This document shows positions 1,574 to 21,145 of a stretch of 24,267 nucleotides of DNA, one piece after another (the first letter of the stretch is position 1; every line of letters starts with the position of its first letter). The stretch lies in IMG/VR virus record IMGVR_UViG_3300010354_007419, positions 1 to 24,267 of that record; one strand, written 5' to 3'. The translations under genes were made by a program, and so were the position numbers. The stretch comes from a virus. The notes under the pieces were generated by a model that was not told the DNA's origin, searched no databases, and worked only from the letters and a program-made list of their open reading frames with translations.

Positions 1574-2326
1574 ATGGGTCTATTTAACAATATCACACAG
1601 AGCCACCAACATACTCAATCTCTTAGAGATTTATTGTATCAGTATGATAGTTTTTTAGATAGTCTTGAGGTTATAGCCGATTTTGGTTGCGGTTCCGGGT
1701 TGGATATAGAATGGTGGGCAAAATTAGAAACCAGAGATGACCCTCCAGAACCGAGGAACTATCTTTGTTATGCAGTTGATAAAAATATTAAACAAATAAA
1801 ACCACACATATTAGAATTACCAAACGTCAAAGCAATAGAATGCGATTTAGAAGATGATCGTTTCATTCCTAGGCAAATAGACCTTGTATGGTGCCATGAT
1901 GTATTTCAATACATGACTAATCCAATTTACACTTTGTCTAAATGGAATGAAATGATTAACGAGAATGGTATGTTGATTTTATCTGTACCGCAGTCAAATT
2001 TTTTCAGTTACAACAGACCGCAAAATATAAGTTATAATGGTTGGTATTTTAACCATAATATAGTAAACTTAATGTACATGTTAGCAGTTAATGGTTTCGA
2101 CTGTCGAGATGCCTATTTTTACAAAGAACCAAACACTATGTGGTTGCACGTAGCAGTTTATAAAAGTCAGATTCCTCCAATGAATCCTAAAACTTCTACC
2201 TGGTTTGATATTGTTGATGCCAATTTAGTAAATGATAGTGTCGCGGAGTGTCTAAATCAATATGGATATGTTAAACAAGACTCTATAATAACAACTTGGT
2301 TAGATAAAGATAATTATAGACAATAA
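1574..2326 (+). CDS. class I SAM-dependent methyltransferase
   Basis: About 250 residues. The glycine-rich SAM motif I is DFGCGSG at residues 36-42. A later acidic strand (AVDKN) would hold the ribose hydroxyls, and IDLVWCHDVFQYM corresponds to motif IV of Methyltransf_11/23-type enzymes. I chose ATG 1574 because GAGG at 1561-1564 is correctly spaced; a TTG codon at 1553 in the same frame has no better site. The stop shares its last base with the start of the nucleotidyltransferase-cupin gene. The substrate is unknown. The linked sugar-nucleotide gene suggests a sugar or glycan, possibly O-methylation. It could also modify a small molecule or protein. Confidence 0.8.
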   Translation: MGLFNNITQSHQHTQSLRDLLYQYDSFLDSLEVIADFGCGSGLDIEWWAKLETRDDPPEPRNYLCYAVDKNIKQIKPHILELPNVKAIECDLEDDRFIPRQIDLVWCHDVFQYMTNPIYTLSKWNEMINENGMLILSVPQSNFFSYNRPQNISYNGWYFNHNIVNLMYMLAVNGFDCRDAYFYKEPNTMWLHVAVYKSQIPPMNPKTSTWFDIVDANLVNDSVAECLNQYGYVKQDSIITTWLDKDNYRQ

Positions 2327-3105
2327 TGAAAATAGTTTTGGCTACCGGAGGATTTGATCCGGTTCATAGCGGTCATATATCCTATCTCAATCACGCTGAT
2401 CATTTAGGCGATTGGCTTGTAGTTGGTCTAAACTCGGATGCATGGCTTGCACGTAAAAAAGGAAGACCGTTTATGACATGGCACGAACGCATGACGGTGC
2501 TCGATAACCTGCACATGGTAGATCGTGTGATTGAGTTTGATGATACAGATGGAACTGCATGCGATGCTATACGAAAAGTCAAAACTATGTTTCCTGAAGG
2601 AAAAATTGTGTTTGCCAATGGCGGAGATAGGACCCAAGATAATATTCCTGAAATGATTTTTGACGATGTAGAGTTTGTGTTTGGTGTCGGCGGAGAAAAT
2701 AAACTAAACAGCAGCAGTGATATACTCCGGCGCTGGACTTCTATAGAAGTTGAACGTGCATGGGGAAGTTACACTGTTCTAAATGAAATACCTGGCGCCA
2801 AAGTCAAAACCTTAACTGTACAGCCTGGCCAAACCCTGAGCATGCAACGACATCAGCATCGCAGCGAGTACTGGATGGTAACTGAAGGAACATGCATGAT
2901 CAACATGGCTCTACCAGGCGATCTAAATAATCCGCCAAAAATACTTTCAAAGTACGATGAATGGCGTGTTCCTAAAAACACCTGGCATCAACTTACTAAT
3001 CCTTTTACACGACCGTGTACCATCGTTGAAATACAATACGGCGAGCAATGTGTGGAAGAAGATATTGAGAGATTAGATACCGCAAGTCAAGCAGCGCAAA
3101 TATAA
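2326..3105 (+). CDS. nucleotidyltransferase (HxGH family) fused to a phosphomannose isomerase-type cupin
   Basis: 259-residue two-domain protein. Residues 1-137 are a cytidylyltransferase-like Rossmann domain: GGFDPVHSGH with HSGH at 14-17, the RPFMTWHERMTVLDNL helix region, and NGGDR at 98-102. Such domains join a nucleotide to a sugar- or polyol-phosphate. Residues 139-250 resemble the type II phosphomannose isomerase/ManC C-terminal cupin. ERAWGSYTVL opens it, and HQHRSEYW (H176, H178, E181) with H221 supplies likely metal ligands. It follows the methyltransferase with a 1-nt overlap. The combination suggests a sugar phosphate isomerised or epimerised and then activated by one polypeptide, but nucleotide and sugar cannot be read from sequence. 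No frameshift is visible, so the fusion looks genuine. Confidence 0.83.
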   Translation: MKIVLATGGFDPVHSGHISYLNHADHLGDWLVVGLNSDAWLARKKGRPFMTWHERMTVLDNLHMVDRVIEFDDTDGTACDAIRKVKTMFPEGKIVFANGGDRTQDNIPEMIFDDVEFVFGVGGENKLNSSSDILRRWTSIEVERAWGSYTVLNEIPGAKVKTLTVQPGQTLSMQRHQHRSEYWMVTEGTCMINMALPGDLNNPPKILSKYDEWRVPKNTWHQLTNPFTRPCTIVEIQYGEQCVEEDIERLDTASQAAQI

Positions 3106-5715: not shown

Positions 5716-6631
5716 CTAATTCTACTTCAAAGATTGCGTTGGGTTGCCATCCAAGCGCCTTTAACTTATCATCATTAATACTATATCTAACATCTTGTCC
5801 AGGTCTAGTTATATCTAAGTTCAAATAAGATTCATAACTTAGAATTTTTTCCGAACAAAACATATCAATAATTTGCATTGCGATCATAATATTTTGTTCT
5901 TCGTGGTTGCCGCTTATGTTGTAAATTTCGTTCTGAACACCAGATTCAATAATTTTAATAATTGCAGATGCAGTGTCACTAACGTGCAGCCATGTTCGTC
6001 TTGGCAAGCCAGCATCATGCAGTGCAATAGGCCTACCTAATTGCAAATGCTTTATGCTTTTTGGAATAAATTTTTCTGTGTATTGACCAATACCGTAGTT
6101 GTTAGTTGGCCTAACAATTACGTAAGGAACTTTGAACGTTCTTGCCCATGCTAGAATCAATTGATCTGCTGCTGCTTTGGTAGCTGAGTAAGGATTACTT
6201 GGTTTAAGGAGATCTGTTTCAAAATGGCTGCCTTCTTCAATGTCTCCATATACTTCATCTGTACTAAAATGTAACAGTGTTGGCATCTTAAAGCGATGAC
6301 GTTCTTTAATCAAGTTAAGCAAATGATGCACGCCGTTTACATTACTACGCAAGAACACATCACTACTCACAATACTGTTATCGACGTGTGTTTCTGCTGC
6401 GGTATTGATAATATAGTCGCAATCGTATAACATGTCCAGATCATTGATATCGGACTCAATAAACTTGAACTGATCTTTATATTCTATCAGTTCAGGAAGG
6501 AATTGTACATTTGCTGCATAGGTTTTCTTGTCAACTCCGATAACATAGTATCCTTGTGCTAGGCATCTTTTGGTTACGTGGTAGCCAATGAATCCTAAAC
6601 ATCCTGTAACATAAACTACTTTTGTTGTCAT
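5675..6631 (-). CDS. dTDP-glucose 4,6-dehydratase-like NAD-dependent enzyme
   Basis: 318-residue short-chain dehydrogenase of the extended type. The NAD-binding motif is TGCLGFIG (9-16), followed by TAAETHVDNS (78-86), the RmlB signature STDEVYGD (123-130) and the catalytic NPYSATK (Y148, K152). The C-terminal TRPGQDVRYSINDDKLKALGW is typical of RmlB. It would convert an NDP-hexose to the 4-keto-6-deoxy sugar; the Asp-Glu pair after Thr-125 supports dehydratase chemistry. RmlB proteins are about 340-360 residues, so this one is slightly short. It is the last gene of the minus-strand operon and overlaps the transketolase gene by 4 nt. No RmlA-type thymidylyltransferase is in the window. Confidence 0.85.
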   Translation of the reverse strand: MTTKVVYVTGCLGFIGYHVTKRCLAQGYYVIGVDKKTYAANVQFLPELIEYKDQFKFIESDINDLDMLYDCDYIINTAAETHVDNSIVSSDVFLRSNVNGVHHLLNLIKERHRFKMPTLLHFSTDEVYGDIEEGSHFETDLLKPSNPYSATKAAADQLILAWARTFKVPYVIVRPTNNYGIGQYTEKFIPKSIKHLQLGRPIALHDAGLPRRTWLHVSDTASAIIKIIESGVQNEIYNISGNHEEQNIMIAMQIIDMFCSEKILSYESYLNLDITRPGQDVRYSINDDKLKALGWQPNAIFEVELAKIVQYYSQTFVW

Positions 6632-7110
6632 ATTTTTCTTGTAAGGTTAAGATATGCAGGTTCTTTTGAACCAATAAACACAGGCCAAATATCTTCTAAT
6701 TCAGCAATTGATTTAGGTTTATATAATTTAATATTTGGTAGAGCAGCAAGCACTTGTTCGTCGTCGTGTGCCCAATGGCTAATGCCATCATGGCTGTAGT
6801 CTCTATCTCTACCACTACCAATTAGTTTAACTGGTATACATTCATAATTCACATAATTGCGTAAGAATTCAAAAGGCCTATACAACAAGAAGCTGCTCAT
6901 CGAATAACACACAGGTACCAGATCTTCTTGTGCCATTCCTATTGCAGCACCTATCATTAGTTGTTCTGCTGCACCTACATTGTAAAAGCGTTCTGGGAAA
7001 GCATTGCGAATTTGATCTAGGACACCAAACCCAAGATCGGCAGTGACAACTCTGATGTTGTCAGCATTGACCATGCTTTCTAGTAATAGACTAGCACATT
7101 CTTTTCTCAT
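6628..7110 (-). CDS. transketolase-like, pyrimidine-binding subunit
   Basis: 160 residues that match only the pyrimidine-binding (middle) domain of transketolase-type ThDP enzymes. The activating glutamate is in NVGAAEQLMIGAAIGMA (E49). A His-rich active-site loop SHDGISHWAHDDEQ (H107, H112) matches the HDG.TH...ED loop of two-subunit transketolases. The usual third, C-terminal domain is missing. It is encoded right after the ThDP diphosphate-binding subunit with a 4-nt overlap, so the two should form one enzyme. Expected chemistry is transfer of a two-carbon ketol unit between sugar phosphates. In this context it may supply a heptulose phosphate or extend a sugar; substrate is inference. Confidence 0.85.
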   Translation of the reverse strand: MRKECASLLLESMVNADNIRVVTADLGFGVLDQIRNAFPERFYNVGAAEQLMIGAAIGMAQEDLVPVCYSMSSFLLYRPFEFLRNYVNYECIPVKLIGSGRDRDYSHDGISHWAHDDEQVLAALPNIKLYKPKSIAELEDIWPVFIGSKEPAYLNLTRKI

Positions 7111-7721
7111 TCAATGATCTCCCGATAGTCTTGTTCTTTAAGAACATAATAATGAGTTAGTAGATCTTTGGCAAATGACCATTTAGGCGGATAACTAAAT
7201 CTAATATTAATTCGTGGAAGAAACGCTACAAGTCTGTGACTTAAAGTCATGCTATCAACCATATCATAAGCACCCATGCCGTTTAGATTAGCGTATACAT
7301 GTAAATTATCTACCTTGTTGTCGTGAATAAAACGCAGAGATTCCCATATACTTCCTTCAGCTGCTTCGCCATCGCTAATCATACAGTAAACATTTTTATT
7401 AGGAGTAGCTAAAGCATGCCCGATAGCAATAGGCAATCCGGAACCAAGACTGCCAGTAGAGCAGTACAAATGATTTTCAAGATCTCTGCCTGGATGGATT
7501 CCATGCTTATGCAGCATAGCAACTGGATCAACTCCGTAATATTTTTCAAGCACTACGTATAGAGCAAGTCCTGCATGACCGTTGCTTAAAATAAAAACCT
7601 CATCGTTTTGACGATGCTCGTAAATTTCTTCGATAATAGGTAACGCACTTAATGTAGAACTAAGGTGACTTAATCGTTCTTGATAGGTTATATCAATTAA
7701 TCTACGTTTAGTTGGTGTCAT
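7107..7721 (-). CDS. transketolase-like, ThDP diphosphate-binding subunit
   Basis: 204 residues covering the N-terminal domain of transketolase. Recognisable parts are LSNGHAGLALYVVL (H49, compare LSKGHA in transketolases), GIHPGRDLENHLYCSTGSLGSGL (75-95) and the ThDP/metal motif beginning SDGEAAEGS (116-124) and ending with the Asn of YANLNGMG (N145, N147). The usual N-domain is about 270-280 residues, so this one is trimmed. It pairs with the overlapping downstream gene (7110-6628) as a split enzyme. It follows a methyltransferase gene with a 1-nt overlap, so it is part of the minus-strand sugar operon. Confidence 0.85.
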   Translation of the reverse strand: MTPTKRRLIDITYQERLSHLSSTLSALPIIEEIYEHRQNDEVFILSNGHAGLALYVVLEKYYGVDPVAMLHKHGIHPGRDLENHLYCSTGSLGSGLPIAIGHALATPNKNVYCMISDGEAAEGSIWESLRFIHDNKVDNLHVYANLNGMGAYDMVDSMTLSHRLVAFLPRINIRFSYPPKWSFAKDLLTHYYVLKEQDYREIIE

Positions 7722-8290: not shown

Positions 8291-8988
8291 GCAAAAAGTT
8301 GATCGTGAATTACCAATTCAGTCTGATAACCATGTCGTTGGAACAGTTCTGCCAATTGTTGTCTATTGCTGTCTAGATTGCCGGGCCATGCATTTTCTTT
8401 TACGTCTGTTTGGTGTACTTCTACGAACCAGAACTTAACCTTGTCGGCAATTGGTCCAAGAGTAGTGTCGGTTAGAGCTTGCATCTCAGATCCTTCGATA
8501 TCACACTTGATAAAGTCAACTTGGTTCAATCCTTGCATGTGTAGCAAGGTTTCTAATGTCATACACTGCACTTGAGTTTCAGTCCCGTTACGATCAAGCA
8601 TACTGTTTGTGGTGCTGTTCTCGTTAATGAAAAAAGAAATCATTTCGTTGTGCGGTCCGATGGCCAACTGCAACGGCGTAATGTTATTATGATCTTGAAC
8701 AATTTCTTGTAGTACACTAAATGTTTTTGGTGTCGGTTCCACTGCAATTAATTTTTTGCAACTGTCTGCTGCATACAAACTAAACAATCCGCAATTTGCA
8801 CCAAGATCGAGTACAGTCATGTCGCTGTGATTGGCAAATATAGGATCGTACATACGATCCTCGTTGATTTGTTGTAAAATGACATCGGTGTGATTTTGTG
8901 TGTTGTTAAACCATGCTACAACATCAGGATGCTGGCTTTGATATATGTAATTGTTTTGTTTACTGGTTTTAATTTGTCGTTCTATCAT
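8281..8988 (-). CDS. FkbM-family methyltransferase
   Basis: 235 residues. SAM motif VLDLGANCGLFSLYAA (59 onwards), AVEPTPKTFSVL after it, and the FkbM hallmark VDFIKCDIEGSEMQAL near residues 156-171 in which the Asp-Ile-Glu-Gly segment lines the active site. FkbM enzymes O-methylate hydroxyl groups on sugars and polyketides and are frequent in glycan clusters of bacteria and phages. It overlaps the upstream epimerase gene by 20 nt. It is one of four methyltransferases in the window, so the final glycan is probably heavily methylated. Confidence 0.85.
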   Translation of the reverse strand: MIERQIKTSKQNNYIYQSQHPDVVAWFNNTQNHTDVILQQINEDRMYDPIFANHSDMTVLDLGANCGLFSLYAADSCKKLIAVEPTPKTFSVLQEIVQDHNNITPLQLAIGPHNEMISFFINENSTTNSMLDRNGTETQVQCMTLETLLHMQGLNQVDFIKCDIEGSEMQALTDTTLGPIADKVKFWFVEVHQTDVKENAWPGNLDSNRQQLAELFQRHGYQTELVIHDQLFAWK

Positions 8989-9811
8989 ATTTTGCCTTTA
9001 ATAAAAAATCTCTGATACCTGTTTCTAAGTCGTATTCGCAATCAAAACCAAGTTTAAATGATTTGGCTATATCGCATACCCATACGTTGTTCTCGAATGC
9101 TTTTCGCATTTCTGCTACTTTAGCTACCGGAGCATCTGTGTTATCAGTAACCTTTGTCCATATATCGAGTAAATCAAAATTACTTGTCTGCAATCCACTG
9201 CCAAAATTAACAATTTCCCCGGGCGCTAAATCCCAAGTTTGTAATACCAGATCAATTCCGCGAACAAAATCATTTATATAAATGAAATCGTGATGACCTT
9301 GATATAAAGTCATTGGTTCGTTGTAATTAAACGCACGATACAATCTTGGGAATAATCTATGCGGTCTTTCTCCTGGACCATAAACACTGTACGGTCTTAC
9401 GATCCAAACGGGCAAGTTGAAAAATCTGGCCCAGCCCTGGCACATCAATGTTGCAGCACCTTTGGTAGCTTGATAGTAATCAACCGGCTTCAGTAAATCT
9501 GTTTCAGCAGTAGAATGATCAGTTGGCCCATATTCACTGCTAGAACCAATTTGAATTAAACGGCAGTATTGATCACATTCGCGAACATATTCTAATACAG
9601 TCTGAACCATCGCAATGTTTGGTTCGAACATGTGTTCGGGATCGTATATCTCGGCTGCTGAGTTAATTATAGCATCAGGTTGGAATTGACGCAAGCATTC
9701 GCGTAATTGTTCATTTCTACGGAACGCATAGACTTCGTGACCGCGCTTAGAATAATACTCTACTAGGTTTTGTCCGACAAAACCCGTGGCGCCTGTTATG
9801 AATATTCTCAT
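8969..9811 (-). CDS. NAD-dependent epimerase/dehydratase
   Basis: 280-residue extended short-chain dehydrogenase. NAD motif TGATGFVG (6-13), SAAEIYDPEHM (51-61), the active-site strand IGSSSEYG (88-95) and the catalytic YYQATK (Y113, K117). It lacks the Thr-Asp-Glu triad of 4,6-dehydratases (Ser-Ser-Glu here), so it is better read as a reductase or epimerase of a nucleotide sugar, for example acting on the 4-keto product of the dehydratase in the same operon. It overlaps the glycosyltransferase gene by 4 nt (ATGA). Exact reaction unknown. Confidence 0.83.
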   Translation of the reverse strand: MRIFITGATGFVGQNLVEYYSKRGHEVYAFRRNEQLRECLRQFQPDAIINSAAEIYDPEHMFEPNIAMVQTVLEYVRECDQYCRLIQIGSSSEYGPTDHSTAETDLLKPVDYYQATKGAATLMCQGWARFFNLPVWIVRPYSVYGPGERPHRLFPRLYRAFNYNEPMTLYQGHHDFIYINDFVRGIDLVLQTWDLAPGEIVNFGSGLQTSNFDLLDIWTKVTDNTDAPVAKVAEMRKAFENNVWVCDIAKSFKLGFDCEYDLETGIRDFLLKAKYDRTTN

Positions 9812-12435: not shown

Positions 12436-13470
12436 ATGTCAAAAACAGTATTAATCACCGGCGGCGCCGGTTTCATTGCACATCATGTAATCGATTTAAT
12501 TCTTAAAACAACAGAGTGGAAGATCGTCTGCCTTGACCGGCTTGATATTTCTGGTAATCTAAATCGATTACACGATATGCTGCAAGACCATGATTCTAAA
12601 ATGGTCAGTCAACGCTTGCGTATTGTGTTTCACGATCTCAAAGCAGAGATCAACAGCCAAATTGTACATGACATTGGTCCAGTAGACATTGTTCTACACT
12701 TGGCTGCAGGCAGTCACGTGGATCGTTCAATCGCCTACCCCATGGAGTTTGTACAGGACAATGTGGTTGGCACAGTTAATATGTTAGACTATGCAAGGAA
12801 GAACTTACCTAATTTGGAGAAGTTTGTATATTTTTCCACCGACGAGATATTTGGCATTGCACCGCCTGGTGTTTCATATCGCGAGTATGATCGATATAAC
12901 AGTACCAATCCCTACTCCGCGTCTAAAGCGGCAGCGGAAGAGTTTTGCGTGGCGTATGAAAATACTTACAAAATGCCTATTGTTGTTACGCATACCATGA
13001 ATGTATTCGGCGAACGACAGCATCCGGAAAAGTTTATTCCGGCAACTATTCAGAAAGTGAGAGATGGGGAAACAGTCATCATACACAGTGATCCAACCCG
13101 AACCGTGGCAGGTTCGCGAATGTACATCCATGCCCGAGATGTTGCTGAAGGTCTTATGTTCATACTCGGTCTTGAGAATTATACTCACACCGGTGACTAC
13201 GGCCACGCCCACTGTCCGAAGTTTAATCTTGTTGGCACAGAAGAAATTGATAACCTTACCCTAGCACAAATGATTGCTGCGGCTGTAGGTAAAGAATTAA
13301 AATATGAAATGACTGACTTCCATACCAGCCGCCCCGGCCACGACATGCGTTATGCACTAGACGGTGGATTGTTAAAGAGCCTAGGTTGGGAACCCAAGAT
13401 CAAATTGAGCGAACGTATCACAGAAATGGTTAAATGGACATTACATAACGAAAGATGGTTAAGCAAATGA
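12436..13470 (+). CDS. NDP-sugar 4,6-dehydratase-like enzyme
   Basis: 344 residues, RmlB/CapD-like extended SDR. NAD motif TGGAGFIA (8-15; the last Gly is Ala), LAAGSHVDRS (89-98), STDEIFG (134-140), NPYSASK (Y160, K164), and C-terminal TSRPGHDMRYALDGGLLKSLGW. The Thr-Asp-Glu triad argues for 4,6-dehydration of an NDP-hexose. It differs from the 5675 enzyme in length and in base composition: it looks richer in GC than the neighbouring glycosyltransferase genes, which hints at separate acquisition. Ribosome site GAGG at 12428-12431. It overlaps the next gene. Confidence 0.84.
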   Translation: MSKTVLITGGAGFIAHHVIDLILKTTEWKIVCLDRLDISGNLNRLHDMLQDHDSKMVSQRLRIVFHDLKAEINSQIVHDIGPVDIVLHLAAGSHVDRSIAYPMEFVQDNVVGTVNMLDYARKNLPNLEKFVYFSTDEIFGIAPPGVSYREYDRYNSTNPYSASKAAAEEFCVAYENTYKMPIVVTHTMNVFGERQHPEKFIPATIQKVRDGETVIIHSDPTRTVAGSRMYIHARDVAEGLMFILGLENYTHTGDYGHAHCPKFNLVGTEEIDNLTLAQMIAAAVGKELKYEMTDFHTSRPGHDMRYALDGGLLKSLGWEPKIKLSERITEMVKWTLHNERWLSK

Positions 13471-14177
13471 TCAAACACGGTTTTGTAGTTACTTCTGCTG
13501 TTAATAGTAAATTTGGAGTATATAGTCCCGAAGAAAGACTAGCACAAACTGTCATCACTCTGCAGAATATTAGATTTCGAGTACCGGATGCAAAAATCAT
13601 TGTGATGGAATGTGCTGGTACAGCACTGACAGAATCACAAAGCAATACACTGGAACAAAATTGTGATTTACTTTTGGACTTCAGTCGCGACCCTGATGTA
13701 TTGGCTATCTACCAAAGTGACAATTGGGATGTGGTTAAAAATAGTACAGAGATTATGTGCTTTTCTCGAGCATTGCGTATGTGCAAAGATGACGGTGACT
13801 TCGCGGGGCTAGATAGAATACATAAAATGTCAGGTCGGTATATACTAAATGACGAATTCAGTCTTGGAGTCTACGAAGAATATCCAGACCGTATTATTAT
13901 TGGTCCTAAACACAAAAGTCAGTTTCCATACCATGTGACTGGAATTGAATTACAATACATGGCTAGACTTTGGTCCTGGCCTGCTGATCAGACCGAACGT
14001 GTAATTCAAGTGTATAATGATAGTCTAAGCTATATAGGACAACGAGTAAGCCAAGGCGGATACGCAGATATCGAGCATGTATTATATAAATTCTTACCTG
14101 TAGAATTAGTGCAGGAACTACCTGTTCTTGGTGTAGAAGGATTTATTGCACCAAACGGTATACCTATTAAAAACTAA
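13455..14177 (+). CDS. hypothetical protein of the glycan operon, possible glycosyltransferase
   Basis: 240 residues (236 if translation starts at ATG 13467, which makes an ATGA overlap with the previous stop; neither start has a strong Shine-Dalgarno). No clear family. The block LDRIHKMSGRYILNDEF (about 117-133) is like the K.SGRY.L segment seen in several phage and viral glycosyltransferase-like proteins, and the N-terminal VVTSAVNSKFGVYSPEERLAQT suggests a nucleotide-binding strand-loop. Its place between a dehydratase and a C-methyltransferase gene supports a sugar-related role. There is no membrane segment or signal peptide. Confidence 0.68.
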   Translation: MVKQMIKHGFVVTSAVNSKFGVYSPEERLAQTVITLQNIRFRVPDAKIIVMECAGTALTESQSNTLEQNCDLLLDFSRDPDVLAIYQSDNWDVVKNSTEIMCFSRALRMCKDDGDFAGLDRIHKMSGRYILNDEFSLGVYEEYPDRIIIGPKHKSQFPYHVTGIELQYMARLWSWPADQTERVIQVYNDSLSYIGQRVSQGGYADIEHVLYKFLPVELVQELPVLGVEGFIAPNGIPIKN

Positions 14178-14178
14178 C

Positions 14179-15390
14179 ATGAAAAATTGTCAAGAATTAA
14201 CAGAATGTTTAGCATGTGGCGGAAAAAATTTATTATCTGCTATTAATTTAGGCAATCAGCCATTGGCGAATAATTTTTTAAAAGAACCTGACAAAAATCA
14301 ACAATACCCACTGGCAGTAAATCAATGTGCTGATTGTTTTCATTTACAACTAACTCATGTGGTTGATCCTGCTGTAATCTATCAAAATTATGCATACGTC
14401 AGTGGAACAAGCCAGACTTATTTAGATTATATGTTTTGGTTTGCTAAATGGACAAGAGAATACAGTAATATACAATTTGGAAGTGTACTGGATATTGGTT
14501 GTAATGATGGCAGTCAACTGGATTATTTTGAAAAATTAGGCTACCTTACTTACGGAGTAGATCCAGCACAAAATCTTCATCCTACTAGTACGGCCAAAGG
14601 CCATCGAGTTGTGTGTGGATTTTGGGACGAACAGTCTATAGGGAATCTGGACAACAGGCAATTTGATATAGTAGTGGCGCAAAATAGTTTTGCTCACAAC
14701 CCAAATCCACTCACATATCTCAAATTATTACGACCGTTGATGAAATCAAACGGTTTATTTTTCGTTCAAACTAGTCAGGCCGACATGGTACGTAATGGTG
14801 AATTTGATACCATTTATCATGAACATGTAAATTTTTACAATGTCAATTCCATGAACAAACTGTGTCAACGAGCTGGATGGGAGTTAATTGATGCGGTTAA
14901 AACACCTATTCACGGAACCAGCTATGTGTTTGTACTTTCTCCTTCTCGAACTCGTCGTGAGCATGTGGCAAATCTAATTAGTATAGAAGCTGACTTGCTT
15001 AATAATGACACATATCGCGCATGGGCTGCTCGTGCGAGAAAAATCGCTAGTGAATTCAGTTCAAGAATCACGATGTTCAAAGAACAGGGATACCATGTTG
15101 TGGGATATGGTGCTGCGGCCAAAGGAATGACTTTACTTAATTTTGCAGATGTTGCGTTGGATTATATCATTGATGACAATCCAAACAAGCAGGGCACATA
15201 TAGCCCAGGTCAAGATATTCCTGTAGTATCTATTGATCATTTGTCTGGCTATAACGACAGTGATAAAATTTTATTTGTTCCACTGGCCTGGAACTTTTTT
15301 AAAGAAATCAAAGGCCGAATACAGAAACAAAGAAACAACAGCAACGACCGTTTTCTAAAATATTTTCCGGAGGTGGAAGTTGGAATTTAA
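14179..15390 (+). CDS. sugar C-methyltransferase (Methyltransf_13/23/14 architecture)
   Basis: 403 residues. N-terminal zinc-binding domain with C10, C13 and C50, C53 (ECLACGG and QCADCFHLQ). The SAM motif is LDIGCNDGSQLDYF (104-117). The catalytic-region EHVNFYN block follows (YHEHVNFYNV near 225-234). The C-terminal domain contains VGYGAAAKGMTLLN. This is the layout of TylC3/NovU-type enzymes, which add a methyl to carbon of a 4-keto-deoxy NDP-sugar, making branched sugars. Such a substrate would come from the 4,6-dehydratases here. I chose ATG 14179, one base after the previous stop, over an in-frame TTG at 14146. Confidence 0.87.
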   Translation: MKNCQELTECLACGGKNLLSAINLGNQPLANNFLKEPDKNQQYPLAVNQCADCFHLQLTHVVDPAVIYQNYAYVSGTSQTYLDYMFWFAKWTREYSNIQFGSVLDIGCNDGSQLDYFEKLGYLTYGVDPAQNLHPTSTAKGHRVVCGFWDEQSIGNLDNRQFDIVVAQNSFAHNPNPLTYLKLLRPLMKSNGLFFVQTSQADMVRNGEFDTIYHEHVNFYNVNSMNKLCQRAGWELIDAVKTPIHGTSYVFVLSPSRTRREHVANLISIEADLLNNDTYRAWAARARKIASEFSSRITMFKEQGYHVVGYGAAAKGMTLLNFADVALDYIIDDNPNKQGTYSPGQDIPVVSIDHLSGYNDSDKILFVPLAWNFFKEIKGRIQKQRNNSNDRFLKYFPEVEVGI

Positions 15391-15733: not shown

Positions 15734-16796
15734 CACTGGTGAATATGATGTACATTTAGATATACCCACTGACAATTATGTAGTTCGTAATTTATATCCC
15801 GTTCATTTAGAATCCGTTGTTGACTATGTAAAACAAATTCCTGTTCGGGACAAAAATACATTAATAATTTTGCTTGGTGCATTTCAATGCATACAGGAAA
15901 GGGATTTTTGGATAATACCGTTAGATAATTTTTGTAAATCTATATCAAATCCAGTAATTGTGTTTACGGGAAAATTAATTGACGATTCTGAATATCAATT
16001 GCCGCAAATTAACTTTGCTTACTGTCGCATCGGTATGTTTGATTTGGTTAGCAACTTGCATTGGAATCGAAGAATAGAAAATCAATCTCGAGACTGGCAA
16101 GAAGATTGTTATAACAAAAGAAAATATAAATTCTACTGGGCAAGCAGTAAAGATTGGTACACCAGAAGATATATACTTGCTGGTTTGATTAACAATCAAT
16201 TATTAGATTCTGGTTTGGTTAATTACAAATGTGTACACACCGACATTCCCGGTCCGTGGATACAACATCATATAGAATCAACTTGGGCTGCACATATCGA
16301 TCAAGAATGTTATTCTATTGCTGATAAAATTCCGTTACCGGCTATTGATAACACCATTGAATTTACACAGACTGATGTAAATTTTTATCTTGATAGTTAT
16401 TTGGGAATAGTCATTGATACATTCTTTGATAATGGTGTTTTTGTAAGCGAAAAAGTTTTTAATGCAATGAATTATCAGCAGTTGTTTTTTTATGTAGGGT
16501 ACCAAGGAACATTACGATATTTGCGCGAACAAGGATACCAAACATTTGATGATATTATTGATACCAGTTATGATAGCATTGTAGATCCCGGAGCACGGTT
16601 AGTAGCTGCTAGAAAAAGTTTACTTGATTTTTTAAACCAGCCTATAGACGCAATTGCAGTGGCCTACGAAAAAAGTCAGCCAGCAATAAAACATAATAAA
16701 CAATTAGTACAGCAACAAAGACCTGACATACAATTTACTCAAAATATTCAAGATTATTTAAATGAACATCGAAAGACCACAACAGATATTAGTTAG
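15726..16796 (+). CDS. putative glycosyltransferase
   Basis: 356 residues, A/T-rich gene. The C-terminal half carries FVSEKVFNAMNYQQLFFYVG (about 238-257), followed by YLREQGYQTFDDIIDTSYD. The order S-E-K...Q.F...G....L...GY.TF....YD is what bacterial and phage glycosyltransferases of the GT10/exostosin-like group show at the nucleotide-sugar site. The N-terminal part is diverged. I am confident of a protein, less so of the exact family. The ATG at 15726 overlaps the previous gene by 8 nt; the 3' end overlaps the GT9 gene by 35 nt. Confidence 0.72.
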   Translation: MYDTGEYDVHLDIPTDNYVVRNLYPVHLESVVDYVKQIPVRDKNTLIILLGAFQCIQERDFWIIPLDNFCKSISNPVIVFTGKLIDDSEYQLPQINFAYCRIGMFDLVSNLHWNRRIENQSRDWQEDCYNKRKYKFYWASSKDWYTRRYILAGLINNQLLDSGLVNYKCVHTDIPGPWIQHHIESTWAAHIDQECYSIADKIPLPAIDNTIEFTQTDVNFYLDSYLGIVIDTFFDNGVFVSEKVFNAMNYQQLFFYVGYQGTLRYLREQGYQTFDDIIDTSYDSIVDPGARLVAARKSLLDFLNQPIDAIAVAYEKSQPAIKHNKQLVQQQRPDIQFTQNIQDYLNEHRKTTTDIS

Positions 16797-17649
16797 ACGC
16801 AGAGCTGCCCTTGGTGATGTGATTATGAGCACCGGAGTTGTGCGTGAGCTCAAACGCAAATACAATTGTGAAATTGATGTAGCAACAGAATTTCCCAATG
16901 TGTACGACAATAATCCGCATGTAAGAGCTATCTACCACACTGATGCAACTCCTGATATAAAAAATTATGATCTCTATATTAATTTGGATGATGCCTACGA
17001 GTACAATCCCGTTAATCATTACGTGGATAGTTATTTCTATCGCGCTTTTGGCACATCAGCAATGGATAACAAGTCTGTAGAATTATTCACAACTGAACTC
17101 GACAAAGATATTGTTAACTCTTTCTGTCAAGACAACGAGCTAGATCGATACATTGTGATTCATATTAGACAATGGTATTGGGAACTAAAAAACATGGCAT
17201 GGGCCACTTGGTTTGCTGTGTTTGAACGATTATTTACTGAACGCACAGACTTTAAAATTGTTTGTGTGGGTAGCGAACGTGATGGCTCGGTTGATCATCC
17301 TTTGTTTGTTGATGCTAGAGGTCGGCTTTCCATTCAACAACAAAAATTATTAATGGATCGTGCCCGGTGTTTTGTAGGAATAGACAGCGGACCATTTCAT
17401 GTTGCAGCAGCAAGCAACACTCATATTATCGCATTACAAACACATTTACAACCAGAAAGAATATTACCTTATCGCAAAGAAGTGTTTGGGCACAATACTA
17501 CTGTGATCATGAGCAATGTTGACTGTGTGGGTTGTAATGACAATCAACAGAGACCTGTTAGACAGGTCGTATGCAAACATGGCGATTTCCGCTGCAAAGA
17601 TAGCTTTAGTGCCGAACGTATTGCCAATAATATTTTAGAAATACTATGA
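16762..17649 (+). CDS. GT9-family (heptosyltransferase-like) glycosyltransferase
   Basis: 295 residues with the GT-B layout of family GT9, whose members transfer heptose from ADP-heptose to LPS core. N-terminal RRRAALGDVIMSTGVVREL (12-30), the IVIHIRQWYWELKNMAW strand at the domain junction, and the nucleotide-site CFVGIDSGPFHVAAASNT (about 203-220), where the DSGP.H.AAA signature is nearly intact. Two later Cys pairs (VDCVGCNDNQ and VCKHGDFRCKD) may bind zinc or be structural. Its location next to HldE/HldD-like genes fits ADP-heptose as donor. It could use another nucleotide sugar. Confidence 0.85.
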   Translation: MNIERPQQILVRRRAALGDVIMSTGVVRELKRKYNCEIDVATEFPNVYDNNPHVRAIYHTDATPDIKNYDLYINLDDAYEYNPVNHYVDSYFYRAFGTSAMDNKSVELFTTELDKDIVNSFCQDNELDRYIVIHIRQWYWELKNMAWATWFAVFERLFTERTDFKIVCVGSERDGSVDHPLFVDARGRLSIQQQKLLMDRARCFVGIDSGPFHVAAASNTHIIALQTHLQPERILPYRKEVFGHNTTVIMSNVDCVGCNDNQQRPVRQVVCKHGDFRCKDSFSAERIANNILEIL

Positions 17650-18395
17650 TTTATAAACATTCAGGAACTTTTGGTGACCTAATTTACGGTCTCAGTGTAA
17701 TTAAAAAAATGGGCAGCGGCACTGTGGCTGTTGCATTGGGTAACATTGAAAAGTGTGTGGCTGAATACGGTTACAGACCCGACGAAGTAGATCCCATGCA
17801 CAAGGGTCGTTTTCGTAATGCAGATTTTGATATTTTGAAACCATTACTAACCAGGCAGTCCTACATAAACCAAGTTACTGTATGGACCGGTGATCACGAT
17901 GTTGACTTAGATCGTTTTCGTGGAGTATTGTTTCGTGGATTTGAAGGCAACTATGTGCAAGCATATCATATGACTTTTGGATTGCCTTTCGCCCCCGAAG
18001 TACTTGACGAAACATGGTTAGAAGCTGATGCCAAGACCATTGCTCCAGTTGTGATCAATCGTACATTTAGGTATCGTTGTCCTAACGGTACAGGCACTTG
18101 GCAAAATCTATTAGAGCAAGCCAACATCTCACAAAACGGAATTTTTGTCGGCACACAAGAAGAACATGAAGATTTTGAGAAAAGTACTGGGTTTCATGTA
18201 CAATATTATCCAGTGCAAGATTTTAAAGAACTAGCTGATGTGATTGCTGGTGCAGACTTATTCATGGGCAATCAAAGTGCTGCTTACAGCGTTGCAATGG
18301 GACTTGGAAAAAGTTCTGTGCTAGAAACAATTAAGATTAAACCATTACAAAACAATGAGTGCTACTTCCCTAGATCCAACTGTCAATACTTCTAA
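17646..18395 (+). CDS. divergent GT-B/GT9-like protein
   Basis: 249 residues, ATGA overlap with the GT9 gene. The N-terminal HSGTFGDLIYGLSVIKKMG looks like the GDxI..L....K entry of GT9. The C-terminal ELADVIAGADLFMGNQSAAYSVAMGLGKSSVLE resembles the nucleotide-binding region of GT9, with GNQSA in place of DSGP. The middle is reduced. It may be a second transferase of the same pathway or a non-catalytic partner. Its end overlaps the kinase gene by 41 nt. Confidence 0.7.
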   Translation: MIYKHSGTFGDLIYGLSVIKKMGSGTVAVALGNIEKCVAEYGYRPDEVDPMHKGRFRNADFDILKPLLTRQSYINQVTVWTGDHDVDLDRFRGVLFRGFEGNYVQAYHMTFGLPFAPEVLDETWLEADAKTIAPVVINRTFRYRCPNGTGTWQNLLEQANISQNGIFVGTQEEHEDFEKSTGFHVQYYPVQDFKELADVIAGADLFMGNQSAAYSVAMGLGKSSVLETIKIKPLQNNECYFPRSNCQYF

Positions 18396-19128
18396 AGTGC
18401 GAATACTTTTAATTGGTGACAACGGTATTGATCAGTATCAATACGGAACAGTGACTAGAATCAGTCCCGAAGCACCAGTGCCTGTGGTCAATTATACACA
18501 CACTGTGACCAAGCCAGGCATGGCAGCAAATGTAAAAGAAAATTTAGAGGCATTGGGTTGTGAAGTGGATTTTGTGCATGGAATTAAAACCTGTATTAAG
18601 ACTCGAGTAATTGATTCAAGAACAAAACAACACCTAGTAAGGATAGATCAAGACTCACCTAGTCGTGCCGTAAAAGTTGACTATAACAACATAGACCAGT
18701 ACAATGCAATAGTTGTCAGCGATTACAACAAGGGAAGTGTAGATTATGAGACCATTGAACAGCTTAGAAAGAATTATACTGGTCCTATTTTCGTTGACAC
18801 AAAAAAATACGACTTGGCCAGATGTGAAGGTTGCTACGTTAAGATTAACCAATTGGAATTTGAAGCTGCTAAAACTTTCCCTACAGAACTTATTGTCACC
18901 CTCGGAAGAGACGGTGCCCGGTACAAAGAACATACGATTTCTGCTCCACAAGTAGAGGCGTTTGATGTATGCGGGGCAGGTGATACTTTTTTATCTGCTC
19001 TCGCATACAACTACGTTTTATCACAAGACATTTTATCAGCAATTGAATTTGCCATTCGGGCGTCTAGCATAACTGTGCAGCACATTGGTGTGTATAGCCC
19101 AACATTAGAGGAAATTGAACAGGTATGA
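18355..19128 (+). CDS. hldA: HldE kinase domain-like heptose 7-phosphate kinase (compact)
   Basis: 257-residue PfkB-family sugar kinase closest in motif pattern to the N-terminal kinase of HldE, which phosphorylates D-glycero-D-manno-heptose 7-phosphate at C1. GDNGIDQYQYGTVTRISPEAPVPVV (21-45) is the strong HldE signature. The substrate loop KPGMAANVKENLEALG (53-68) has Met where the usual second Gly occurs. KTRVIDSRTKQHLVRIDQ, VSDYNKGSV and GAGDTF (207-212, with catalytic D210) follow. The HldE kinase domain is about 310-320 residues; here about 50-60 residues seem missing after residue 68. It is a separate gene from the adenylyltransferase. Start ATG 18355 overlaps the previous gene and lacks a clear Shine-Dalgarno. 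Confidence 0.85.
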   Translation: MSATSLDPTVNTSKVRILLIGDNGIDQYQYGTVTRISPEAPVPVVNYTHTVTKPGMAANVKENLEALGCEVDFVHGIKTCIKTRVIDSRTKQHLVRIDQDSPSRAVKVDYNNIDQYNAIVVSDYNKGSVDYETIEQLRKNYTGPIFVDTKKYDLARCEGCYVKINQLEFEAAKTFPTELIVTLGRDGARYKEHTISAPQVEAFDVCGAGDTFLSALAYNYVLSQDILSAIEFAIRASSITVQHIGVYSPTLEEIEQV

Positions 19129-19493
19129 CAAGACTAGAAGGATTTGTAGAAAAAGGTTGGGGTAACGAATTTATATTTGCTACCAATGACAAATACTGTG
19201 GCAAGATAATGAAGTTCAACGCAGGTGCAAGATTTAGTATGCACTTTCATGCCGAAAAAGATGAGACTTGGTATGTATTAGATGGACGTTTTGAAGTGAT
19301 ATGGATTAACACCAAGGATGCGTCAAAGGACAGTAGAATTCTGAATGCTGGTGACACATGGCGTAATGAACCGTTGTTTCCGCATCAATTGATTTGTATA
19401 GAAGAAGGTAATATAATAGAAGTTTCAACACCAGACTCAGTAGAGGATAATTATCGTGTACAGCCCGGGGATAGCCAGAAGAATAATAGTTAA
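19125..19493 (+). CDS. small cupin, sugar isomerase/epimerase-like
   Basis: 122-residue single cupin. EKGWGNEFIFATN opens the domain. Metal site SMHFHAEKDETWYVLDG (H58, H60, E64 or nearby) and the later PHQLICIEEG complete it. It resembles the phosphomannose isomerase-like/WbuC-type cupins of sugar clusters. It sits between the heptose kinase and adenylyltransferase genes with overlaps of 4 and 38 nt, so a step on heptose phosphate or its nucleotide is plausible, but the reaction is not visible. Confidence 0.78.
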   Translation: MTRLEGFVEKGWGNEFIFATNDKYCGKIMKFNAGARFSMHFHAEKDETWYVLDGRFEVIWINTKDASKDSRILNAGDTWRNEPLFPHQLICIEEGNIIEVSTPDSVEDNYRVQPGDSQKNNS

Positions 19494-19875
19494 CGGTACC
19501 TTTGATATCTTGCATCGTGGGCATATTGAAATGCTGAACTTTGCACGTAGTCAAGGAACCTATTTGTTGGTGTGCATTGATAGTGATAGACAGGTACGAG
19601 AATTAAAAGGCGAGAGTCGCCCCGTTAATAATCAAGAGGATCGTAAATTTGCACTAGACAATTTAAAGTGTGTAGATGCTGTTTGGATTTTTGATACACA
19701 AGCGGAGCTTGAACACATTTGTAAATTGTATCGCCCGGATCTAATGGTCAAAGGTTCAGACTATAGAGGTAAAACAATAACAGGCGCACAATATTGTGGC
19801 GACATTAAATACTATCCACTAGTACAAAATTATTCAACGAGTAAAATAATTGAAAATATTAATAACAGGAAGTAG
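19456..19875 (+). CDS. hldC: HldE-type heptose 1-phosphate adenylyltransferase
   Basis: 139-residue nucleotidyltransferase of the RfaE2/HldC type, which would join ATP and heptose 1-phosphate to give ADP-heptose. NGTFDILHRGH with HRGH at 20-23, CIDSDRQVRELKGESRPVN, ADP-heptose-synthase-like MVKGSDYRG (about 95-103) and the ATP-site YSTSKII (126-132). Full length for a stand-alone C-terminal HldE domain. Translation start is GTG 19456, supported by GAGG at 19443-19446 and lying within the cupin gene. The nucleotide preference (ATP or CTP) cannot be proved from sequence. Confidence 0.87.
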   Translation: MYSPGIARRIIVNGTFDILHRGHIEMLNFARSQGTYLLVCIDSDRQVRELKGESRPVNNQEDRKFALDNLKCVDAVWIFDTQAELEHICKLYRPDLMVKGSDYRGKTITGAQYCGDIKYYPLVQNYSTSKIIENINNRK

Positions 19876-20635
19876 AGGCTTCATCGGCAGTCATGCTGTA
19901 AGTTTTTGGCAAAAGATGGGAGTCCATGAAATCTACACATACGAGTGGGATGAGCGTGTTCTACCTAGAATCGAAGGACTAGACTGGGTGTTTCATTTTG
20001 GTGCTATTAGTAGCACTACAGAACGTGATGTTGCCCGAGTCATGCGCCAAAATGTAGACTTCTCTATTTGGTTATACGAGGAATGTAGGAAACATGATGT
20101 TAATCTTCAATGGTCAAGCTCGGCGAGCGTGTATGGCCTTGGCACAGATTTTAGAGAATCCGCACCCGTGGATCCTCGCAGCCCGTATGCGTGGTCAAAA
20201 TATCTATTCGAACACTATGTTGAAAAGAATCCGACGCATGTTCGGTGCCAAGGATTTAGATACTTTAATGTGTATGGTGCAAACGAAATGCACAAAGGAA
20301 CACAAGCTAGCCCATACTATCAGTTTGCTGTTCAAGCACAGTCAACCGGAGTTATAAAAGTTTTTGAAGGCAGTGACCGCTTTCGTAGAGATTTTGTTAG
20401 TGTAGACCGAGTACTAGATGTACAATTTGAATTTATTTACAACGATATTGAAGAAAACGGTATTTGGAATATTGGTACCGGAAAGACTCGATCGTTCTTA
20501 GACGTAGCACAAGAACGAGCTAAACAGTATGGCGCCTTAATTGAACAGATCCCGTTTCCCAAGCATTTAGAATACAGTTATCAGACTTATACTTGTGCAG
20601 ACTTAACAAAATTGCAACAAACTCTCAGTGGTTGA
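19850..20635 (+). CDS. hldD: HldD-like ADP-heptose 6-epimerase
   Basis: 261-residue SDR with the pattern of HldD/RfaD, which converts ADP-D-glycero-D-manno-heptose to the L-glycero form. TGSRGFIG (6-13), WVFHFGAISSTTERD (46-60), SSSASVYG (89-96), SPYAWSKYLFE (Y113, K117), GFRYFNVYGANEMHKG and FEGSDRFRRDFVSVDR. Each of these matches HldD closely. It is shorter than the usual ~310 residues. The likely start is TTG 19850, overlapping the previous gene; the ribosome site is weak. It closes the heptose operon; the TGA stop lies within the -35 of the next promoter. Confidence 0.87.
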   Translation: MKILITGSRGFIGSHAVSFWQKMGVHEIYTYEWDERVLPRIEGLDWVFHFGAISSTTERDVARVMRQNVDFSIWLYEECRKHDVNLQWSSSASVYGLGTDFRESAPVDPRSPYAWSKYLFEHYVEKNPTHVRCQGFRYFNVYGANEMHKGTQASPYYQFAVQAQSTGVIKVFEGSDRFRRDFVSVDRVLDVQFEFIYNDIEENGIWNIGTGKTRSFLDVAQERAKQYGALIEQIPFPKHLEYSYQTYTCADLTKLQQTLSG

Positions 20636-20668: not shown

Positions 20669-21145
20669 ATGAAATATTTTGCTTACGGAATGAATACTAG
20701 TTTGGACCAGATGGCCACTCGCTGCCCGGGTGCTGTTTGTCTTGGTCCTGCTTGGATAGACGATTACGAATTTGTTTTTCGTGCCCATGCAGACATAGCC
20801 GAATCAGCCGGTAGTGTCTGCTACGGAGTTCTTTGGGATATCAACGAAAAGCATTTGCAATCTTTGGATGCATTAGAAGGATATCCATATTACTATACTA
20901 GATTCTTGGTCAAAGTAAATACCGGTGACTACTTTATTTTTGCATTAACCTATCAGATGAACGATCAAAGCGGCTTGCAAGAACCCGGTGCTGGATATTT
21001 AGAAATGGTCACAGAAGGCTATCAACAAAACGGTGTACCTACCAATCAAATTGATAGAGCTATAAATATGGTATGCTCTTCATCGATCGCGACGAACACG
21101 GAACTTGTCAGTACTTGGTTACCAACGACGCAGGACTATGCCTAA
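20669..21145 (+). CDS. gamma-glutamylcyclotransferase-like (AIG2/GGCT) protein
   Basis: 158 residues. The GGCT fold signature is visible: MKYFAYGMN (Y6-G7-x-N9, usually YGSN), RCPGAVCLGPAWI, VLWDINEKHLQSLDALEGYPYYYTR with the likely catalytic E70, and the EMVTEGYQQNG block (about 111-121). The family cleaves gamma-glutamyl amines or dipeptides, giving 5-oxoproline, and is found in phages with unknown roles. It is expressed from its own leaderless-type promoter, separately from the glycan operon. Its last 73 nt overlap another frame. Confidence 0.82.
   Translation: MKYFAYGMNTSLDQMATRCPGAVCLGPAWIDDYEFVFRAHADIAESAGSVCYGVLWDINEKHLQSLDALEGYPYYYTRFLVKVNTGDYFIFALTYQMNDQSGLQEPGAGYLEMVTEGYQQNGVPTNQIDRAINMVCSSSIATNTELVSTWLPTTQDYA

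Follow-up and report, generated by a model that had tools for sequence, protein, structure and literature searches.

How a phage that carries the later steps of a heptose pathway might begin that pathway is the question raised by a virus record fragment of 24,267 bases (IMG/VR virus record IMGVR_UViG_3300010354_007419, positions 1 to 24,267), the whole of which is referred to here as the window. An operon of six open reading frames (ORFs) at positions 16762-20635 would provide, like the known heptose pathway with GmhA and GmhB, the kinase, nucleotidyltransferase and epimerase steps; unlike that pathway, the window contains no GmhA or GmhB, HldE is split into two genes, the kinase is compact, with ~60 residues fewer than the HldE kinases of cells, and a cupin gene is added. 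We propose, as the probable explanation, that the operon is a nucleoside diphosphate (NDP)-heptose cassette in which the cupin serves as a non-orthologous sedoheptulose-7-phosphate isomerase replacing GmhA. The proposal draws on gene families, catalytic residues, gene linkage and the lack of GmhA in the scanned viral records, from which we infer the reactions, the substrate of the cupin, the source of the phosphatase and the acceptor. The six ORFs are as follows.

16762..17649, plus strand: GT9-type glycosyltransferase (heptosyltransferase-like), 295 amino acids; PF01075, GIDSGPxH motif
17646..18395, plus strand: conserved protein of 249 amino acids without a family; dN/dS 0.05-0.08
18355..19128, plus strand: compact PfkB-family D-glycero-D-manno-heptose-7-phosphate kinase (HldE N-domain-like, predicted), 257 amino acids; TIGR02198, PHROG 8133
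19125..19493, plus strand: cupin, predicted aldose-ketose isomerase in place of GmhA, 122 amino acids; linkage, fusion, PDB profile matches, residue conservation
19456..19875, plus strand: HldE C-domain-like adenylyltransferase, 139 amino acids; TIGR02199, PHROG 7878
19850..20635, plus strand: HldD-like ADP-heptose 6-epimerase (predicted), 261 amino acids; TIGR02197, PDB 1eq2

All six are in frame, adjoin with short overlaps and are under purifying selection, with ratios of nonsynonymous to synonymous substitution rates (dN/dS) of ~0.04-0.22 against relatives, figures that are rough because dS is saturated in many pairs. Since their synteny is also kept in about two dozen relatives, chance is ruled out, and the ORFs are real and lie in one overlapping operon, as a preliminary description of this DNA had stated. 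That description had further read three of the proteins as consecutive enzymes of the ADP-heptose route, which is supported by their families, by intact motifs and by the structure model of the kinase. The HldE-N, HldE-C and HldD models are the best curated matches, although the curated cut-offs are not reached. The kinase matches TIGR02198 with E 3e-42 (144.7 bits, under the curated cut-off of 345), has a PfkB fold, and retains the catalytic motif GAGD as well as the motif RISPEAPVP. Its AlphaFold model (pLDDT 91) fits best, among PDB entries, the Burkholderia HldA 4e84 (Z 27.4, root mean square deviation 2.2 over 244 residues), ahead of ribokinases (Z 24.7). The compact form has lost ~29 alignment columns after residue 77, ~9 after residue 111 and ~17 after residue 176, and the catalytic positions are kept, 23 positions being at least 93% conserved in compact and full-length forms alike. 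A midpoint-rooted FastTree tree built from 103 cluster representatives separates the compact kinases, as a clade of their own, from the cellular full-length HldE kinases. The adenylyltransferase has TIGR02199 as its best NCBIfam match (E 1e-37, 129.2 bits, under the cut-off of 181.5) and carries the motifs HRGH and VKGSDY. The epimerase matches TIGR02197 (E 3e-61, 207.4 bits, under the cut-off of 274.6), and its alignment to PDB 1eq2 (E 3.5e-43) places the catalytic YxxxK and the HKG lysine.

The cupin, which had previously been listed without a role, is marked by its context as a likely isomerase. The kinase is encoded in 53 viral loci (our locus numbers carry the prefix L), and almost everywhere a nucleotidyltransferase and a cupin lie beside it while the gene order varies: kinase-cupin-nucleotidyltransferase-epimerase in the window, and nucleotidyltransferase-kinase-cupin, cupin-nucleotidyltransferase-kinase or epimerase-nucleotidyltransferase-kinase-cupin-HAD in others. 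An HldD-like epimerase is linked in most of the cassettes, and once the cupin is fused to the adenylyltransferase (L052:6210-6977). When the clusters are counted by clade, with L084 placed in the compact and L239 in the full-length clade following the tree, 35 of the 41 compact clusters have a cupin no more than 6 kb from the kinase, one has GmhA and five have neither. Among the 62 full-length clusters no cupin is found near the kinase and GmhA lies within 10 kb in 23, the latter figure being biased upward, and the cupin zero not, as some of these clusters were fetched via GmhA. Of 50,697 phage records searched, 35 have the cupin, and every one of these is a cyanophage or marine virus; among them are, from a comparison of the two lists by reading, all 31 marine phage records with a compact kinase, the five remaining kinase matches being other, more distant records.

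The distribution of the cupin across two branches of heptose synthesis narrows its possible role. The ADP-beta and GDP-alpha heptose branches have only the GmhA and GmhB steps in common. In three cyanophages, i.e. Bellamy, SynMITS9220M01 and AG-345-E15 (the last from tblastn with the Bellamy genes only), the cupin gene lies between genes for an HddA-type kinase (NF049969, E down to 3e-85, under cut-off) and an HddC-type guanylyltransferase (NF049965, under cut-off); Bellamy gave no GmhA match. Because the cupin is found in both branches, and is unlikely as a phosphatase, it is a likely isomerase. In L229, the compact kinase, a HAD protein, the nucleotidyltransferase and GmhA share an operon with no cupin on the 24.6 kb contig; GmhA replaces the cupin there. 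The complete cassette (nucleotidyltransferase, cupin, kinase, epimerase and HAD) also occurs in a cellular genome of 1.4 Mb (L150:7005-11858), and a cupin of this kind in only 2 of 201 relatives in the same order. That genome gave no TIGR00441 match, and its sole SIS_2 match lies in a frame of 300 residues, a length that suggests MurQ.

GmhA itself is lacking from the viral records scanned: among 32 that bear the cassette, some of which are fragments and the longest of which has 364 kb, neither TIGR00441 nor SIS_2 was matched, and just one has a GmhB-like gene (L081, 90 bits, under cut-off). By comparison, all 21 genomes selected for their full-length kinases carry GmhA. The proposed isomerase of the cassette has no SIS_2 domain, the cupin being another fold.

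The family and residues of the cupin are consistent with sugar isomerisation. The window protein matches PF07883 (32.8 bits), and a profile of the divergent cupins finds as its best PDB matches the D-lyxose/D-mannose isomerases 7nzo (3e-9) and 2y0o (2e-8) and the L-ribose isomerase 5avp (3e-6). With these enzymes the phage cupin has in common the cupin fold, YCxK, HxH, KxE, the motif-2 His and a Glu near the C-terminus, although it is shorter (~120 amino acids) and its proposed substrate is a heptose phosphate. D-lyxose and D-mannose have the same C2-C3 configuration as D-glycero-D-manno-heptose. In the Thermofilum D-lyxose isomerase, the sugar and metal are contacted by K62, H75, H77, K86, E88, H143, E156 and D163 (PMC8378251), the first seven of which correspond to K27, H40, H42, K45, E47, H87 and E99 of the window cupin. 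Of 50 distinct cupins, 48 retain these seven predicted active-site residues; the other two are a protein truncated where its contig ends and a divergent second copy. The eighth contact is out of strict register, a conserved D108 standing two residues on in the window cupin. The gathering cut-off of PF07385 (20.8) is reached neither by the window cupin (13.2 bits) nor by those of P-SSM2 (17.4), L150 (18.2) and SynMITS9220M01 (18.9).

Since linkage, sharing between branches, the replacement in L229, the lack of TIGR00441 in L150 and the isomerase-type family and residues all point the same way, isomerisation is the likely function of the cupin. We are, on balance, inclined to a wider claim, that the cupin founds a second, non-homologous, metal-dependent, D-lyxose-isomerase-like family of sedoheptulose-7-phosphate isomerases, which would stand in for GmhA in cassettes of the ADP and the GDP branch alike, viral ones and a few cellular ones, and would let phages make heptose in hosts without a heptose pathway. 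Under the proposed route, the pentose phosphate pathway would supply sedoheptulose 7-phosphate, which the cupin would convert to D-glycero-D-manno-heptose 7-phosphate; the compact kinase would phosphorylate the latter to the 1,7-bisphosphate. A phosphatase, supplied by the host in the case of the window phage and possibly by a phage mini-HAD protein in some relatives, would remove the 7-phosphate; the adenylyltransferase would then form ADP-heptose and the HldD-like enzyme epimerise it. The GT9 enzyme would probably transfer the heptose, most likely to a host surface glycan.

Several observations weigh against this proposal. The kinase, nucleotidyltransferase and epimerase all score under the NCBI curated cut-offs, for which reason they are best called 'like' rather than certified equivalogs. 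Five compact clusters have no cupin nearby (L038, L053, L082, L083 and L085), and only L085 is explained, its cupin lying at a distance of ~13 kb, apparently on the same contig; L053-L055 and L038 have a compact kinase and no cupin on the contig (96 kb in L053, 46 kb in L038), and at L053 there is no nucleotidyltransferase near the compact kinase either. A GmhA-like SIS protein is also encoded in SynMITS9220M01, next to a second HddA-like kinase. Both GmhA and the cupin occur in L188 and L208, too, the former near an HddA-like kinase and the latter at another place. A strict rule that the cupin and GmhA never occur in one genome is thus rejected, these three carrying both in separate clusters. 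Neither GmhB nor another phosphatase gene was found in the window, where host enzymes may serve that step. A profile dominated by window-type cupins ranks oxalate decarboxylases and quercetinases above sugar isomerases, the cupin structure model fits many cupins about equally, so that the fold search singles out no isomerases, and the known D-lyxose isomerases act on free, unphosphorylated sugars. Finally, L067, L078 and L079 have the GT9 protein together with its neighbour but no kinase in the stretch that was fetched, and because of this the sugar donor of the two proteins need not be phage-made ADP-heptose and may come from elsewhere.

In a rival explanation, the cassette makes ADP-heptose with the GmhA of the host as isomerase, the cupin having an accessory role such as epimerising, trimming or regulating a nucleotide-heptose. 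Cupins have many different functions and are frequent in sugar loci, the AlphaFold model is similar to isomerases but also to KdgF, ectoine synthase and CapF, and the nearest relatives of the window UvsX are in jumbo phages of Gram-negative hosts. Such hosts usually have GmhA, which counts for a host-supplied enzyme. Nevertheless, we consider this explanation unlikely, if the most serious of the competitors: the cupin is linked no less tightly than the nucleotidyltransferase, whatever the gene order, it is shared with the HddA/HddC branch, GmhA replaces it in L229, and its active site is of the isomerase type. Moreover, cyanobacterial lipopolysaccharide (LPS) is reported to be without heptose (PMC4390846), and cyanophage hosts may therefore not supply GmhA.

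That the HldE and HldD relatives make a different NDP-sugar could account for the scores under the equivalog cut-offs and for the kinase and cupin being divergent subfamilies. The epimerase linked in most cassettes, however, aligns with the residues of HldD, and the cupin is common to HddA/HddC-type genes that are heptose-specific by profile, so that a different product seems quite improbable. The destination of the sugar is a separate matter, compatible with the proposed chemistry. Relatives of the GT9 protein include protein O-heptosyltransferases, as its weak TIGR04414 match reflects, and the heptose could decorate the virion or the phage DNA rather than host surface glycans. We hold this for unlikely, given that the island also encodes enzymes typical of surface polysaccharide, namely dTDP-sugar dehydratases, a C-methyltransferase and several glycosyltransferases, and that the pelagimyophage study favours O-chain modification (PMC7029224).

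Two GT9 proteins had been claimed for the operon, of which only one stands. The protein at 16762-17649 matches PF01075 (40.9 bits against a gathering cut-off of 22), mainly in its C-terminal half, has weak matches to the RfaQ/WaaC/WaaF models, and carries a GIDSGPxH motif that is invariant in nine relatives. For the protein at 17646-18395, profile searches returned no family, and an hhalign profile-profile comparison with the GT9 family was not significant, which leaves the GT9-like label unsupported. Neither protein has a match in isolated phages (50,697 records).

Several cyanophage labels are affected by these assignments. The cyanophage 'phosphoheptose isomerase' (P-SSM2_311, SSM2_207) is a small HAD protein with a DIDGT motif, whose best match is the capsule phosphatase TIGR01689, under cut-off; with its DxDGT motif and its matches to HAD phosphatases, the P-SSM2 protein was rejected as a GmhA. 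This mini-HAD protein could serve the GmhB step. Cyanophage genes labelled 'nucleotidyltransferase' or 'cysteine dioxygenase' are the cupin, and annotation errors are probable in P-SSM2, S-SM2 and relatives (L003:9746-10427; L254:7026-7337 and 8667-9333). In one instance the gene labelled nucleotidyltransferase that follows a HAD-like 'phosphoheptose isomerase' is the cupin.

The operon sits inside a large glycan-synthesis island spanning ~1.5-21 kb of the window, with methyltransferases, sugar dehydratases and epimerases, GT17- and GT34-type transferases and a C-methyltransferase. UvsX and UvsY genes at the left end of the window place this large phage in the T4 superfamily, the nearest UvsX relatives being those of jumbo phages such as GAP32, CBB and XbC2 (~66-67% identity). 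A dTDP-glucose 4,6-dehydratase-like gene and a C-methyltransferase gene (Methyltransf_13/14) at 12436-15390 on the plus strand suggest that a branched deoxysugar is made in the same island. On the minus strand, a split miniature transketolase (6628-7721) consists of a 160-residue pyrimidine domain and a 204-residue thiamine pyrophosphate (TPP) domain in one operon; transketolase-like genes are also found near the cassette in S-SM2 and L150. After the epimerase gene, in many relatives as in the window, comes a gamma-glutamyl cyclotransferase-like gene (20669-21145, plus strand). One further protein is encoded as follows.

2326..3105, plus strand: fusion of an HldE-C-like nucleotidyltransferase with a type II phosphomannose-isomerase cupin; TIGR02199 83 bits, PF01050 84.9 bits (cut-off 23.6)

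Though outside the heptose operon, it parallels the pairing of a nucleotidyltransferase with an isomerase. In L208 a nucleotidyltransferase resembling that of the fused protein has a gene of its own, and the very next gene encodes a cupin of the same family as the one in the operon.

Heptose genes have been published in cyanophage SynMITS9220M01 (PMC7378029), and rfaE in pelagimyophages, for which host-surface remodelling is proposed (PMC7029224). Like the window, the cyanophages P-SSM2, S-CAM1, S-SM2 and SynMITS9220M01 have the compact kinase, the HldE-C-like nucleotidyltransferase and the cupin in one island, which in the first three also holds an HldD-like or nucleotide-sugar epimerase. Cyanophages differ in an extra mini-HAD phosphatase, the window having no HAD gene and a GT9 gene upstream, and in SynMITS9220M01, unlike the window, the cupin is paired with HddA/HddC-type genes. 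The pelagimyophages likewise have an HldE-type gene in a phage glycan island, but no cupin or full cassette is described in the portion of the study consulted (PMC7029224). We found no earlier report of a cupin in heptose synthesis in the open-licence literature; a phage-borne heptose cassette is thus already known, and the substitution of a cupin for GmhA would be new.

If the proposal is correct, the missing first step in the heptose cassettes of many aquatic phages would be filled, and a new way of starting the heptose pathway would be established in the window phage and dozens of relatives. Gene labels of familiar cyanophage genomes would be corrected, and the enzyme function assigned would be directly testable. 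As a review gives heptose as absent from cyanobacterial LPS (PMC4390846), the purpose of heptose in cyanophages is puzzling; phages that make it in such hosts would have to do so for a purpose of their own.

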